A stretch of 64,000 nt of DNA from Devosia sp. YR412 (lineage in GTDB: Bacteria; Pseudomonadota; Alphaproteobacteria; Rhizobiales; Devosiaceae): contig NZ_FOFL01000002.1 in assembly GCF_900110945.1 (NCBI RefSeq), positions 1 through 64,000 on the forward strand. Reading direction: 5' to 3'. Shown here in pieces: positions 2,957 through 34,638 of the stretch. A model generated the notes under the pieces. The model did not search any database. It was not told where the DNA came from and saw nothing but the letters and a program-made list of their open reading frames with translations. The translations under genes and the position numbers were made by a program. The stretch's first letter is position 1; every line of letters begins with the position of its first letter.

Positions 2957-3294
2957 TCCAACACGCGCGCCACAGAGCGCAAGATCATGCCTGTTGGTAG
3001 GGCGGAAGCAGTCCTGTCATCAAGCCCAAAACGGGCGGAAAGGCCCGGTGCACAAGGGCCTTGAGCATATTTGCCTGCTCGTTGCGCCTTGCCTGCCAAG
3101 CCACTGCGTGCAAGGCGGCACCGGGCAACAGAACATATGGCCAGACCGCCGTGCTGGAGAAAAATAGTTTCCTACCGACGCCAAACAGACCCGATTCCGG
3201 ACAATATTCTACAGTATTAGTAGAATATAACAGGCAGCAGAGTTGGTGAGGTAAGGTGTACGCCCAGCTCATCCCCCTCCCCCTAAACGCCAAA
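2957..3294. other. Intergenic region upstream of cysD
   Basis: No convincing coding frame lies in this roughly 340-bp gap. Short open frames exist on both strands but lack ribosome sites and family features. It should hold the promoter and leader of the cysD-cysNC operon, and it contains the palindrome at 3204-3228. I could not identify a known riboswitch by eye. Confidence 0.5.
3204..3228. promoter_or_regulatory. 25-bp palindrome, probable operator for the cys operon
   Basis: Two perfect 9-bp arms, ATATTCTAC and GTAGAATAT, flank a 7-bp spacer (AGTATTA). The AT-rich palindrome stands out in GC-rich surroundings and lies between cysD and the terminator of the TonB receptor gene. Its form suits a dimeric regulator such as an Rrf2- or GntR-type protein, but the regulator is not identifiable from the sequence. 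Confidence 0.5.
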
Positions 3295-3316
3295 GGCCGC
3301 GCCTTGCGGCGCAGCC
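3295..3316 (-). terminator. Probable intrinsic terminator of the TonB receptor gene
   Basis: Read on the minus strand, a 9-bp GC-rich stem with one G-T wobble closes a GCAA tetraloop and is followed by TTTGGCGTTT. It lies 24 bp past the receptor stop codon. The T-run is interrupted, so termination efficiency is uncertain. Confidence 0.6.
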
Positions 3317-29698: not shown

Positions 29699-29911
29699 CC
29701 CAGTTCACACGCTTTCGTGAGCCATCTGTGAACGCCGCCTTAATCTGGCAAGATTCTTCGCACTCTTAGGGACAAGCCGCATTTCTCCTCCGGAATACGA
29801 AGGAGCGAGCCATGCATCTGGCGAATGCCCCATATGCATCAACTATTTGCACTATGCGGCGTTCGAGCTTTGCCGAAGAAGTCGGCTTTACAAGACCCAC
29901 AGGGCATAGCG

Positions 29912-31513
29912 TTGAAGCGTCACCTTACAAACCTGCCTACCCGTCGTCAGTTCCTTCAGGGACTCGCCGCTGTTTCACTTCTCTCGACCACGGCCTTGAC
30001 AGCGCCCGCCTTCGCACAGGTGACGCCGCAGGCTGCCGAGTTTGCCTTCGATTTCGACAGCTTCAGCGCCCGCATGCAGGAGATTGCCGCGGCCGATTTC
30101 GTGCCGCCCTCGCGCGACCTGCCCGCCGCCTTCGCCGATCTCGATTACGACGCCTATCGACGCATCCAGTACAGCACCGACGCCAGCAAGTGGCTCGACG
30201 ATAACCTCGGCTATCGCCTGCAGGCCTTCCACATGGGCTGGCTCTTCCCTGAGCCGGTACAGGTTTATGAAATCCAGGGCGGCACCGCCCGCTCCATCGG
30301 CTTCAGCGCCAAGGATTTCGACTATCACGACGATGCCGTCGAGGCCGCTGCCGCCGAAGTTACCGATTTCCCGGGCGTTGCCGGATTCCGCATCAATGCG
30401 CCGATGAACAGCACGGCCATGTATGACGAGGTGGTCTCCTTCCTCGGCGCCAGCTATTTCCGTGCACTTGGCCGCAACAACAATTACGGTCTCTCCGCCC
30501 GTGGCCTGGTCATGAACACCTGGCTCGAGGGTCCGGAAGAATTTCCGCGTTTTTCCGAATTCTACGTCGAAAAGCCCACCGCCATCGGCAATCCGCTGAC
30601 CATCTATGCGGCGCTCGAAGGCCCGTCCGTGGCCGGCGCCTATCGCTTCATCTTGACGCCCGCCGGCGAGGCGCATCAGGAGACGACGCTGGAAGTCACC
30701 GCGCGGCTGTATTTCCGCGGCGATGTCACCGAGCTGGGCATTGCCCCGCTGACCTCCATGTATCTGTTCGCCGAGGCCAACCGCACCGGCTTTGACGACT
30801 ATCGTCCGCAGGTCCATGACAGCAATGGCCTGCTGATCCAGAACGAGGCAGGTGAAGTCACCTGGCGTGCGCTCAACAATGCCGCGACGCTCGGCACCTC
30901 CTACTTCTGGGAAAACAACCCCCGTGCCTTCGGCCTCTACCAGCGTGGCCGCGATTTCGAGGCCTATCAGGATGCGGGCGCCCATTACGAGCGCCGCCCG
31001 TCCCTGCGCATCGAACCGATCGGCAATTGGGGCCAGGGCCATGTGCGCCTGGTGGAAATTCCCTCGCGTCTGGAAGGCGACGACAATATCGCCGCCTTCT
31101 GGATTCCCGAGGAGAAGGTGACTGCCGGTAGCTCGCGTGAATTGAGCTATCGCATGGTCTGGGGCGACCTAAATCCCGATTCAGCAAGCCCGATTGCCCA
31201 TGTGGCAGAAACGCGCAGCGGCGTCGGCGGTGTGTCCGGCGTGGAAGCTGTTGAGAACTTTAAGAAATTCGTCATCGACTTTGCGGGGGGCAAGCTCGCG
31301 AGCATGACGGATGAGACCCAGCTCGAGGTAGTGGCCGAGGCAGCGGGCGGAACCATAACAAGTTCCGTGCTTTCTCGTGTCGATGCCAACGGCGTCTGGC
31401 GTCTCGTGCTCGACGTCGAAACTGGAGACTCCAGCAACGTCGAGCTCAAGGCCTACGTGATGGGTCTTGGCCGCAAGCTGACTGAAACATGGCTCTATCA
31501 GTGGAGGCCCTAG
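29912..31513 (+). CDS. opgG: Osmoregulated periplasmic glucan biosynthesis protein OpgG/OpgD
   Basis: A 533-residue periplasmic protein of the MdoG family, which trims, branches or releases beta-glucan backbones made by OpgH. A twin-arginine signal (TRRQFLQGLAAVSLL, cut near APAFA) precedes the MdoG domain with FHMGWLFPEPVQVYEI, FRINAPMNS and LYQRGRDFEAYQD. The Tat signal is more like OpgD. The start is uncertain: TTG 29912 has AGGG 7 nt upstream and gives a normal Tat leader, while ATG 29825 would add 29 residues. A strong ribosome site at 29800-29812 leads into another frame (see findings). First gene of opgG-opgH-opgC. Confidence 0.88.
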   Translation: MKRHLTNLPTRRQFLQGLAAVSLLSTTALTAPAFAQVTPQAAEFAFDFDSFSARMQEIAAADFVPPSRDLPAAFADLDYDAYRRIQYSTDASKWLDDNLGYRLQAFHMGWLFPEPVQVYEIQGGTARSIGFSAKDFDYHDDAVEAAAAEVTDFPGVAGFRINAPMNSTAMYDEVVSFLGASYFRALGRNNNYGLSARGLVMNTWLEGPEEFPRFSEFYVEKPTAIGNPLTIYAALEGPSVAGAYRFILTPAGEAHQETTLEVTARLYFRGDVTELGIAPLTSMYLFAEANRTGFDDYRPQVHDSNGLLIQNEAGEVTWRALNNAATLGTSYFWENNPRAFGLYQRGRDFEAYQDAGAHYERRPSLRIEPIGNWGQGHVRLVEIPSRLEGDDNIAAFWIPEEKVTAGSSRELSYRMVWGDLNPDSASPIAHVAETRSGVGGVSGVEAVENFKKFVIDFAGGKLASMTDETQLEVVAEAAGGTITSSVLSRVDANGVWRLVLDVETGDSSNVELKAYVMGLGRKLTETWLYQWRP

Positions 31514-31514
31514 C

Positions 31515-31649
31515 ATGAAGCATAGTGCAGATTTTCCGTTCGCCCGCGCCCTGCCCGACGCACCCTTGGACATGCCCAAGCAATTGCTCGAGCGCCGCAG
31601 TCTGCTTGACTTGCTGCGGATGACCCTGTCAGCCCTTACCGGGCGCTAG
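31515..31649 (+). CDS. 44-codon frame, probably the separated N-terminus of OpgH
   Basis: This short frame starts 1 nt after the opgG stop with a near-ideal ribosome site (GGAGG, 7 nt). Its product contains ALPDAPLDMPKQLLERRS and a C-terminal helix, ending with TAG at 31647. It is in phase with the main opgH frame, with only five codons between the TAG and opgH ATG 31665. The simplest reading is that it is the natural opgH N-terminus cut off by an amber stop or sequence error. A genuine short coupled peptide is the alternative. Confidence 0.55.
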   Translation: MKHSADFPFARALPDAPLDMPKQLLERRSLLDLLRMTLSALTGR

Positions 31650-31664
31650 GTCTTCGGGTACCGC

Positions 31665-33428
31665 ATGCTTGTTCCTGCCTTTTTTCGATTGGCGACCCTG
31701 TCGATCGCAGCGACCCTCACCGCTTTGGGGGCGCATGTCTTCCTGCGCCTGACAGGCGAAGGTGGCCTGACCATCGTCGATCTCCTGCGCACCGGCCTAG
31801 TGGCCTTCAGCGGCTTCTGGCTGGTCTGGGGCAGTGCTGCCGCTATTCTCGGGGTGTTTCGCCCGGTCCGCATCCAGACCGGCGAAGCCACGGCACCGAA
31901 CGGCATGACCGCCATTCTGGTGCCGGTCTATAACGAAGACCCGATCGCCACGTTCTCGCGCATTGCCGCGATGAACCGCAGCCTGGTCGATCTCGGGATT
32001 TCCGGGAAATTTCACTTCGTCATCCTGTCGGACACCCAGGTGATGGAAACCGCGGCCCAAGAAGCCGTGTGGTTCAACACGCTGCTCGACGAGCCTGATG
32101 CCATCGGCCGGATTTTCTATCGCCGTCGCGAGCGCAATATTGGCCGCAAGGCCGGCAATATCGAAGATTTCATCGCCCGCTCCGGCGGCGCCTATGATTA
32201 TGCGCTGATCCTCGATGCTGACAGCCTGATGGAAGGCAAGACCATTGCCGCCATGGCCCGCCGCATGGATGGCGACGACCAGCTCGGCCTGCTGCAGACC
32301 GTGCCGCATGTCATTCATGCCAGGACCACCTTTGGCCGTTCGCTGCAGTTTGCCTCGACCTATCTGTCGCCGACCTTTGCCCGCGGCGCTGCCCTGATGG
32401 CCGGTCGCGAGGGCCCCTATTGGGGTCACAATGCCATGGTGCGCATGCGCGCCTTTGCCTCCTGCTGCGGCCTGCCGGTCCTCTCCGGCAAGCCCCCCTT
32501 TGGCGGCCATATCCTCAGCCATGACTATGTCGAGGCGGCGCTGCTGTCGCGTGGCGGCTGGAAGGTCAATCTCGACCCGTCCATGCCCGGCTCTTATGAA
32601 GAGGGTCCGGAAAACCTCATCGAATATGCCAAGCGTGACCGCCGCTGGTGCCAGGGCAACCTGCAGCATGCCCGGCTCGTCGGCGCGCCCGGCCTCAAGA
32701 TCTGGAGCCGCTTCACCTTCATCCAGGGCATCATGGCCTATATGGCATCCCCGCTCTGGCTGCTGCTGCTGATCGCCAGCGTCGTCGCCGCCATGTATCC
32801 CGACATGCCGATCTTCATGCCCGGCTTCATGAACATCAACTTCAGTGCCTGGACCCTGATCGTGGCCGTCGCGATCGTTCTGCTGCTGCCCAAATTCGCC
32901 ATCCTGACCCGCGGCATGTTCGACGGCCACAACCGGCGATTCGGCGGCACTATCCGCTCGTTCGCTTCGGTGCTGGGCGAAATCCTGGTCTCGACGCTCT
33001 TGGCACCAACCCTGCTGCTGCTGCAGACCCGCTCGGTGCTGCAGGTGCTGCTCGGCCTCGACGGCGGCTGGCCCGCCACGACGCGCGGCCAGAACTGGGT
33101 CGATCTCAAGACCGCTTTTCAGGCCAGCTGGTGGATCGTCACCATCGCCGTGTTGACCCTGGGCGGTGTTCTGATCTTCGCTCCTACCAGCGCCATCTGG
33201 GTGGCCCCGGCCATGGTACCGGCGATCCTCGCACCATTCCTGATTTCGCTGACCTCGCGCCCGACCGAAAATCCCGGCACGCCGCTGCTCTTCGCCTCGG
33301 ACTCCGAACTGGCCCCACCCAGCATCGTCAGCACGCAGCGCGCCATCTTCGCCGCCTGGACCAATAAGGGCACAACGCAGGACGCCGGTCTGGTCTCCTT
33401 GAGAACCGCACAGCATGTCACTGCCTGA
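31665..33428 (+). CDS. opgH: Glucan biosynthesis glucosyltransferase OpgH
   Basis: A 587-residue inner-membrane GT2-family synthase that builds the linear beta-1,2-glucan backbone from UDP-glucose. The catalytic core contains VPVYNEDP, ILSDTQVME, YRRRERNIGRKAGNIEDF, LDADSLM, the acceptor-site SHDYVEAALL and the processive KRDRRWCQGN motif (QxxRW-like). Transmembrane helices flank it at both ends. ATG 31665 lacks a clear ribosome site, unlike the in-phase ATG 31515, so the native start may be upstream of an in-frame TAG. It overlaps opgC by 14 bp. Confidence 0.92.
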   Translation: MLVPAFFRLATLSIAATLTALGAHVFLRLTGEGGLTIVDLLRTGLVAFSGFWLVWGSAAAILGVFRPVRIQTGEATAPNGMTAILVPVYNEDPIATFSRIAAMNRSLVDLGISGKFHFVILSDTQVMETAAQEAVWFNTLLDEPDAIGRIFYRRRERNIGRKAGNIEDFIARSGGAYDYALILDADSLMEGKTIAAMARRMDGDDQLGLLQTVPHVIHARTTFGRSLQFASTYLSPTFARGAALMAGREGPYWGHNAMVRMRAFASCCGLPVLSGKPPFGGHILSHDYVEAALLSRGGWKVNLDPSMPGSYEEGPENLIEYAKRDRRWCQGNLQHARLVGAPGLKIWSRFTFIQGIMAYMASPLWLLLLIASVVAAMYPDMPIFMPGFMNINFSAWTLIVAVAIVLLLPKFAILTRGMFDGHNRRFGGTIRSFASVLGEILVSTLLAPTLLLLQTRSVLQVLLGLDGGWPATTRGQNWVDLKTAFQASWWIVTIAVLTLGGVLIFAPTSAIWVAPAMVPAILAPFLISLTSRPTENPGTPLLFASDSELAPPSIVSTQRAIFAAWTNKGTTQDAGLVSLRTAQHVTA

Positions 33429-34638
33429 ACATACCAATTATCGTGCCGCCGGCCTGCTCGGGCCGACCTGGGCGCGCGCCATCTGGTCGCGCCCGGCCGC
33501 CGCACCCGCCGCGCCGATGACCGGTCGCGATGACCGTCTCGACATGTTCCGCGGCCTGGCGCTGGTGATGATCTTCATCAACCACGTGCCCGGCACGGTC
33601 TACGAAGCCTTCACCAATCGCAATTTCGGCTTTTCCGATGCGGCCGAAGCCTTCGTCTTCATGTCCGGCATGGCGGCGGGCCTCGCCTATTCCAACCGCT
33701 TCCGCAGCGGCAATCTCTGGGCCGCCACGGCAAAAGTCTGGGCCCGTGCGCGCCAGCTGTATTTCGTCCACATCACCATCACCATGCTCTGCATCGCCAT
33801 CTTCGCCGGCGCGGCAAAATGGTTTGGCCTGACCGACCTCCTGACCAAGAACAATCTGGCGCCGCTGTTCCAGCAGCCACTCGGCGCGCTGATCGGCATT
33901 CCCCTGCTTAGCCATCAGCTCGGCTATCTCAACATCCTGCCGCTCTATATGACGCTGCTGCTGGCCAGCCCGCTGATCATCGTGGCCGGCCTGCGCAGGC
34001 CCTGGCTGGTGCTGATCGCCTCGGTCGCCCTGTGGTTTGCGGCCGGCCAGTTCCGCCTCAACTTCCCCGCCTTCCCCAATCCGGGCGGCTGGTTCTTCGA
34101 CCCCTTTTCCTGGCAATTGCTTTTCGTGCTCGGCCTGCTGACCGGCACGGCGATGAAGGTCGGCGGCAAATTCATTCCCTGGTCGCCGGTCCTCTTCTGG
34201 CTCGCCGCAGCCTTCCTCGTCTTCACCCTGCTCTGGATGAAGGTTCCGCCGATCGGCAAGGGCATGAATGGCGCCATGGGCTGGCTCAGCAGCATTGGCG
34301 TGCCCTTCTACATCACCTGGTTCGACAAGACCTTCCTCTCCCTGCCCCGCCTGCTGCACGCCCTGGCGCTTTTCTACGTGCTGGGCAGCCTTCCCATCAT
34401 GCGCCGCCTCGCCAGCTCGGCCTTGGCCACGCCCCTGCGCCTGATGGGTCGCCAGGGCCTCGCCACCTTCGCCACCGGCACCGTGCTGTCGATCCTGCTG
34501 CAATCCATCAAAGCTGGCCACCCCGGCAACGATCCCGTCTTTGACGGCATCCTCCTCGGCAGCGGGCTGTTGTTGCTCGTTGCCCTGGCCTGGGCGCTGA
34601 CCAGGACGGCGGAGATCAGTCGCGCAAAAGCCGCCTAG
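33415..34638 (+). CDS. opgC: OpgC membrane acyltransferase, succinylation of periplasmic glucans
   Basis: A 407-residue polytopic inner-membrane protein of the OpgC family (PF10129), which adds succinyl groups to osmoregulated periplasmic glucans. The N-terminal signature RDDRLDMFRGLALVMIFINHVP and FGFSDAAEAFVFMSGM are diagnostic; about ten hydrophobic helices follow. It overlaps opgH by 14 bp and ends in a CTAG shared with the convergent rhomboid gene, so opgG-opgH-opgC is a compact operon for making and decorating glucans. Confidence 0.93.
   Translation: MSLPEHTNYRAAGLLGPTWARAIWSRPAAAPAAPMTGRDDRLDMFRGLALVMIFINHVPGTVYEAFTNRNFGFSDAAEAFVFMSGMAAGLAYSNRFRSGNLWAATAKVWARARQLYFVHITITMLCIAIFAGAAKWFGLTDLLTKNNLAPLFQQPLGALIGIPLLSHQLGYLNILPLYMTLLLASPLIIVAGLRRPWLVLIASVALWFAAGQFRLNFPAFPNPGGWFFDPFSWQLLFVLGLLTGTAMKVGGKFIPWSPVLFWLAAAFLVFTLLWMKVPPIGKGMNGAMGWLSSIGVPFYITWFDKTFLSLPRLLHALALFYVLGSLPIMRRLASSALATPLRLMGRQGLATFATGTVLSILLQSIKAGHPGNDPVFDGILLGSGLLLLVALAWALTRTAEISRAKAA

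Follow-up and report, generated by a model that had tools for sequence, protein, structure and literature searches.

A short open reading frame between opgG and opgH raises the question of whether its 44 codons, which end in an in-frame TAG, are a piece cut off from opgH or a gene in their own right. The window, that is, the whole stretch of 64,000 nucleotides of Devosia DNA that was analysed, carries the following features at this locus.

29825..31513, + strand: opgG (MdoG), an ORF and the upstream partner of the small gene; Pfam MdoG PF04349, 575.5 bits.
31503..31507, + strand: GGAGG, Shine-Dalgarno-like, read from the sequence within the end of opgG, 7 nt before the ATG at 31515.
31511-31513, + strand: stop codon TAG of opgG, read from the sequence.
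31515..31649, + strand: small gene, OpgI-like, 44 codons plus TAG (31647-31649); supported by the Devosiaceae loci, Ka/Ks and fused counterparts.
31551..31583, + strand: core motif LPDAPLDMPKQ (codons 13-23 of the small ORF), from the alignment of 67 rows.
31650..31664, + strand: gap of 15 nt in the sequence from the small-ORF stop to the opgH start, where reinitiation would probably occur.
31665..33428, + strand: opgH (MdoH), a glucosyltransferase of 587 aa; NCBIfam NF003959, 742.9 bits (cut-off 550).
33415..34638, + strand: opgC, an ORF whose first 14 nt overlap the end of opgH; Pfam OpgC_C PF10129, 346 bits.

The order of the gene cluster is opgG - opgI-like gene - opgH - opgC. The preliminary description had proposed that opgH is split by the TAG, through a sequence error, a mutation or recoding, and had named a real small ORF coupled to opgH as its last option. 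The 44-codon ORF, its coordinates and its phase with opgH were all exact when the sequence was re-read; the opgH ATG at 31665 lies 150 nt downstream of the small-ORF ATG at 31515, in phase with it. The ORF at 31665 passes the NCBIfam cut-off for MdoH/OpgH and has the synthase fold, and the named relatives of its product at 60-91% identity are Devosia. The small-ORF/opgH stretch had a single match within the window's own genome.

The three nearest genomes (L003, L004 and L005) share both the ORF and its TAG, and nearly all changes in the small ORF against these relatives were synonymous. Ka/Ks against the window was 0.010/0.581 for L003, 0.052/0.705 for L004 and 0.010/0.711 for L005, and the differences at codon positions 1/2/3 numbered 2/0/12, 4/1/15 and 2/0/14, respectively. 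Because these three genomes keep both the ORF and its TAG with a low Ka/Ks, the small ORF is more than a chance frame; as judged against these relatives, it is under purifying selection. Residues P14, A16, P17, M20, P21 and Q23 were invariant in 67/67 aligned small-ORF rows, which were found with the motif pattern itself, yet no Devosiaceae locus lacked the motif. The 44-aa product alone gave no Pfam or NCBIfam match (E up to 1), and no family model covers this conserved small gene.

The OpgH search in the genus covered 75 genomes, and 51 were matched, one of these weakly (27% identity). OpgH is patchy in the genus, with 24 of the 75 genomes having no match and one more having a weak match only. 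In the family, 72 of 136 genomes were matched and 68 Devosiaceae loci were read; the four matches outside these were partial (G096) or weak at 25-26% identity (G118, G119 and G120). In 68/68 loci read, opgH was preceded by a separate ORF bearing the core LPxAP[LM]xMPxQ. The pattern search caught 67 of them; the last one, L069, escaped it owing to a broken opgH in the assembly, and it too has the ORF. At this locus (G053, at 1770 and around), the matches to both opgG and opgH are broken and the small ORF is whole. In the other 67 loci, the small ORF is 44 to 68 codons long (median 45), starts with ATG (63) or GTG (4), and begins at position -4 relative to the opgG stop in 49 cases, the window being exceptional at +1. 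An MK-like beginning served to place the start in 58/67 loci; the remaining loci were assigned the first start codon within range, so a few assignments may be wrong.

This conserved separate peptide, which the preliminary description itself had listed as a finding that would refute its proposal, goes against a split of opgH by the TAG. If opgH had been broken by a true amber mutation or by an error in sequencing, the phase of the peptide and its resemblance to an OpgH N-terminus would make sense, but the same TAG stands in three other genomes and the separate ORF recurs throughout the family loci and in further families, and we rejected this explanation as having a negligible chance of being right. 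Alternatively, a fused OpgH could be made if ribosomes read through or shifted frame where the small ORF ends. This would suit the window, where a single TAG interrupts two frames of the same phase, and 32/67 loci are in phase, which is more than a third of loci that are not independent. However, the frame of the small ORF relative to opgH is not constant (0/1/2 in 32/16/19 of 67 loci), which leaves 35/67 out of frame with both other frames represented. Moreover, two or three in-frame stops lie between the small ORF and opgH in 14 of the 32 in-phase loci, and the stop codon of the small ORF varies (TGA 38, TAG 20 and TAA 9 of 67). A readthrough or frameshift gene was also rejected, and we regard it as highly improbable.

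The preliminary description was right to point out a good ribosome site for the small ORF, the GGAGG 7 nt before its ATG, and a weak start of opgH, since none of the tested Shine-Dalgarno 4-mers occurs in the 15 nt before 31665 (row L002). Among the 67 loci, such a 4-mer was found upstream of the small ORF in 57 and upstream of opgH in 11, and the comparison set of internal opgH ATGs had it in 17/975. The gap from the small-ORF stop to the opgH start had a median of 17 nt and ranged from -25 to 126. Because the ribosome-site 4-mer is common before the small ORF and rare before opgH, it is suggested that opgH may be translated by coupling to the small ORF. Ribosomes that load at the GGAGG in the last part of opgG would probably translate the small ORF up to the TAG at 31647 and then reinitiate at opgH, 15 nt further along, yielding both proteins together. 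The real coupled small ORF, placed last in the preliminary description, is the option that agrees with our data.

The scarcity of ribosome-site 4-mers before opgH, together with an opgH start that usually comes soon after the small-ORF stop, would also be expected of a pure leader peptide, that is, a small ORF that serves only the translation of opgH by coupling or attenuation and whose product is functionless. We consider this unlikely, as the amino acids are conserved and not just the open frame (Ka is far below Ks, and the core motif occurs at every locus), and the motif recurs fused within OpgH in other lineages and can therefore have no leader role there.

The OpgH of other Alphaproteobacteria carries the motif within its own N-terminus, as a fused part of the protein, and the motif P-x-A-P-L-x-M-P-x-Q of the fused OpgH is present in the Devosia small ORF. 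A profile of the small ORFs compared with 23 fused N-termini gave a score of 28.7 (probability 62.5%, E 7.3e-5), which is partly by construction because the fused and outgroup rows were chosen for having the motif; 100 column-shuffled controls for this comparison reached a maximum score of 13.7. The alignment of the curated OpgH model NCBIfam NF003956 to the window's genome depends less on the choice of rows. It begins at 31548, codon 12 of the small ORF, and runs through the TAG into opgH, with an E value of 1.8e-153 that belongs to the whole match, the N-terminal share not being separated out. The remark that LPDAPLDMPKQ looks like an OpgH N-terminus was thus confirmed by the fused motif elsewhere and by this alignment through the TAG. 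The 56-aa product of Sulfitobacter aligned with positions 7-40 of the MdoH model NF003962 weakly (E 0.024, far under the cut-off).

AlphaFold2 predicted a helix at residues 22-42 for the 44-aa peptide alone (7 rows), with a mean pLDDT of 69.0 and the motif weakly placed. When the small ORF was read through into OpgH, the mean pLDDT was 83.3 and the pTM 0.83; in this model, built from 23 rows of which few had the motif, the motif was unplaced and residues 1-31 had pLDDT below 50, with 28 and 27 for the first two blocks of ten residues, and the model is not counted in favour of a subunit role. The best matches of the predicted OpgH fold among solved structures were cellulose synthase BcsA and cyclic glucan synthase, and a search of solved structures by sequence with OpgH matched none at E 0.001.

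Taken together, the data make it likely that the small gene encodes a detached N-terminal segment of OpgH, an OpgI-like microprotein that is made from a separate gene and acts with OpgH in trans. The small gene is coding, conserved and separate, and has its motif in common with fused OpgH N-termini. Its product would be the N-terminal cytoplasmic segment of OpgH as a free microprotein, consisting of the core L-P-x-A-P-[LM]-x-M-P-x-Q stretch and then a short helix, and this free peptide most likely acts on OpgH in trans as a small subunit. We infer coupling to opgH, physical association with OpgH, a role in glucan synthesis and identity with the OpgI of R. sphaeroides.

Motif-bearing separate ORFs of ~53 to 155 aa occupy the same position in further families and orders, and the motif is looser in the longer ones outside Devosiaceae. 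In the loci L124-L127, L135, L137, L142 and L145 of other alphaproteobacteria, opgG is followed, ahead of opgH, by a separate ORF of ~127 to 155 aa that carries a looser motif close to its end; two of these ORFs were searched and gave no significant Pfam/NCBIfam match. OpgH was matched in 241/397 order genomes and 66/385 class genomes, and the loci fetched are part of these. The separate and fused labels come from a loose pattern, and 12 of 18 loci labelled 'neither' were relabelled by reading (4 separate, 8 fused), L141 and L143 being among those relabelled fused without a clear motif. An OpgH tree of 77 rows that we chose as a sample (45 separate, 26 fused and 6 neither) came from a quick search and carries only SH-aLRT support. 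It requires a minimum of 3 changes between separate and fused and fits either direction, splitting or fusion. The window OpgH falls in a clade (starred) of 36 rows, all separate, including Sulfitobacter and Qingshengfaniella. On a plasmid of Dinoroseobacter shibae (L178, 1531-4580), the order is reversed, with mdoH before the glucan biosynthesis gene.

The free microprotein might have another target, such as FtsZ, instead of being a subunit of OpgH. According to PMC3723540, residues 83-101 of E. coli OpgH suffice for division inhibition in a thioredoxin fusion, and in a joint alignment MPEAKRSSMFPDPW, which overlaps these residues and precedes the first membrane helix, aligns to the motif columns. 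On the other hand, PMC3723540 reports no significant effect when residues 83-101 were substituted or deleted within the N-domain. Comparisons of the small-ORF profile with gamma/beta OpgH N-termini by hhalign were not significant (probabilities 0.06-0.54%), as both the mixed alignment of 20 rows and the cleaned one of 14 rows failed, and in the loci read the gene is flanked by opgG and opgH. A 2024 paper saw little to no conservation between Caulobacter and E. coli in the context of the FtsZ segment. We regard another target as very unlikely; the link of the Devosia peptide to the FtsZ-inhibiting segment of E. coli appears to be only positional, and a role of the peptide in cell division is speculation.

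More broadly, OpgI-like microproteins may be the freed OpgH N-terminus, a diffusible subunit of ~44 to 155 residues that was separated or joined more than once in Alphaproteobacteria. Such a subunit would act in trans as a regulator of a BcsA-like glucan synthase and might affect cell division too, like a segment of the E. coli OpgH N-terminus; we offer this only tentatively and think it rather doubtful as a whole. The explanation of the locus is mostly ordinary, and its main interest is the idea that a detached N-terminal segment of OpgH is what OpgI represents, a statement that was absent from the open literature searched. In practice, opgH genes preceded by such a small ORF should not be labelled broken or truncated. 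If the small gene is the detached OpgH N-terminus, comparing the naturally split and fused forms reveals which part of OpgH is replaced by OpgI, ~45 residues suffice, and supplying the peptide in trans becomes a way to test what the OpgH N-terminus does.

Compared with known systems, the fused OpgH of other alphaproteobacteria (e.g., the Bradyrhizobium type) has the same motif before the first membrane helix, and the fused OpgH of Bradyrhizobium sp. 195 carries a variant of it, LLPRESPLPMAPGDL. The segment lies within OpgH in these bacteria, whereas it is a separate gene in Devosia.

In Rhodobacter sphaeroides, opgI is said to be needed for glucan backbone synthesis. On Rhodobacterales plasmids, the same separate ORF occupies the place of the R. 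sphaeroides opgI. Sulfitobacter, of the same order as R. sphaeroides, has a 56-aa ORF with the motif between opgG and opgH, which is listed as 'hypothetical protein' in 11 of 13 plasmid records and unlisted in 2 of an incomplete gene table. The ORF at the same position in Qingshengfaniella has 62 codons and the motif, and is absent from the PLSDB gene table, which is incomplete. On the plasmid of Sulfitobacter sp. W074 (L172, NZ_CP081131.1, 1571-5126), opgG is annotated in five pieces and opgH in two; the small ORF (3141-3311) is intact and 98.2% identical to its counterpart in strain W002.

According to the title of Cogez et al. 2002, as given in the reference lists of PMC10514313 and PMC4726272, the R. 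sphaeroides operon is opgGIH-opgC. A 2023 paper (PMC10514313) states that opgI and opgH of R. sphaeroides together complement an E. coli opgH deletion. Like the Devosia small gene, opgI is separate and lies between opgG and opgH on the same strand, and in both operons opgC is downstream of opgH (33415-34638 in the window, OpgC_C). OpgI and the Devosia peptide were compared by gene position, the nearest sequence proxy being the 56-aa ORF of Sulfitobacter. By this analogy, we file the Devosia small gene as OpgI-like, and it may be the counterpart of the R. sphaeroides OpgI.
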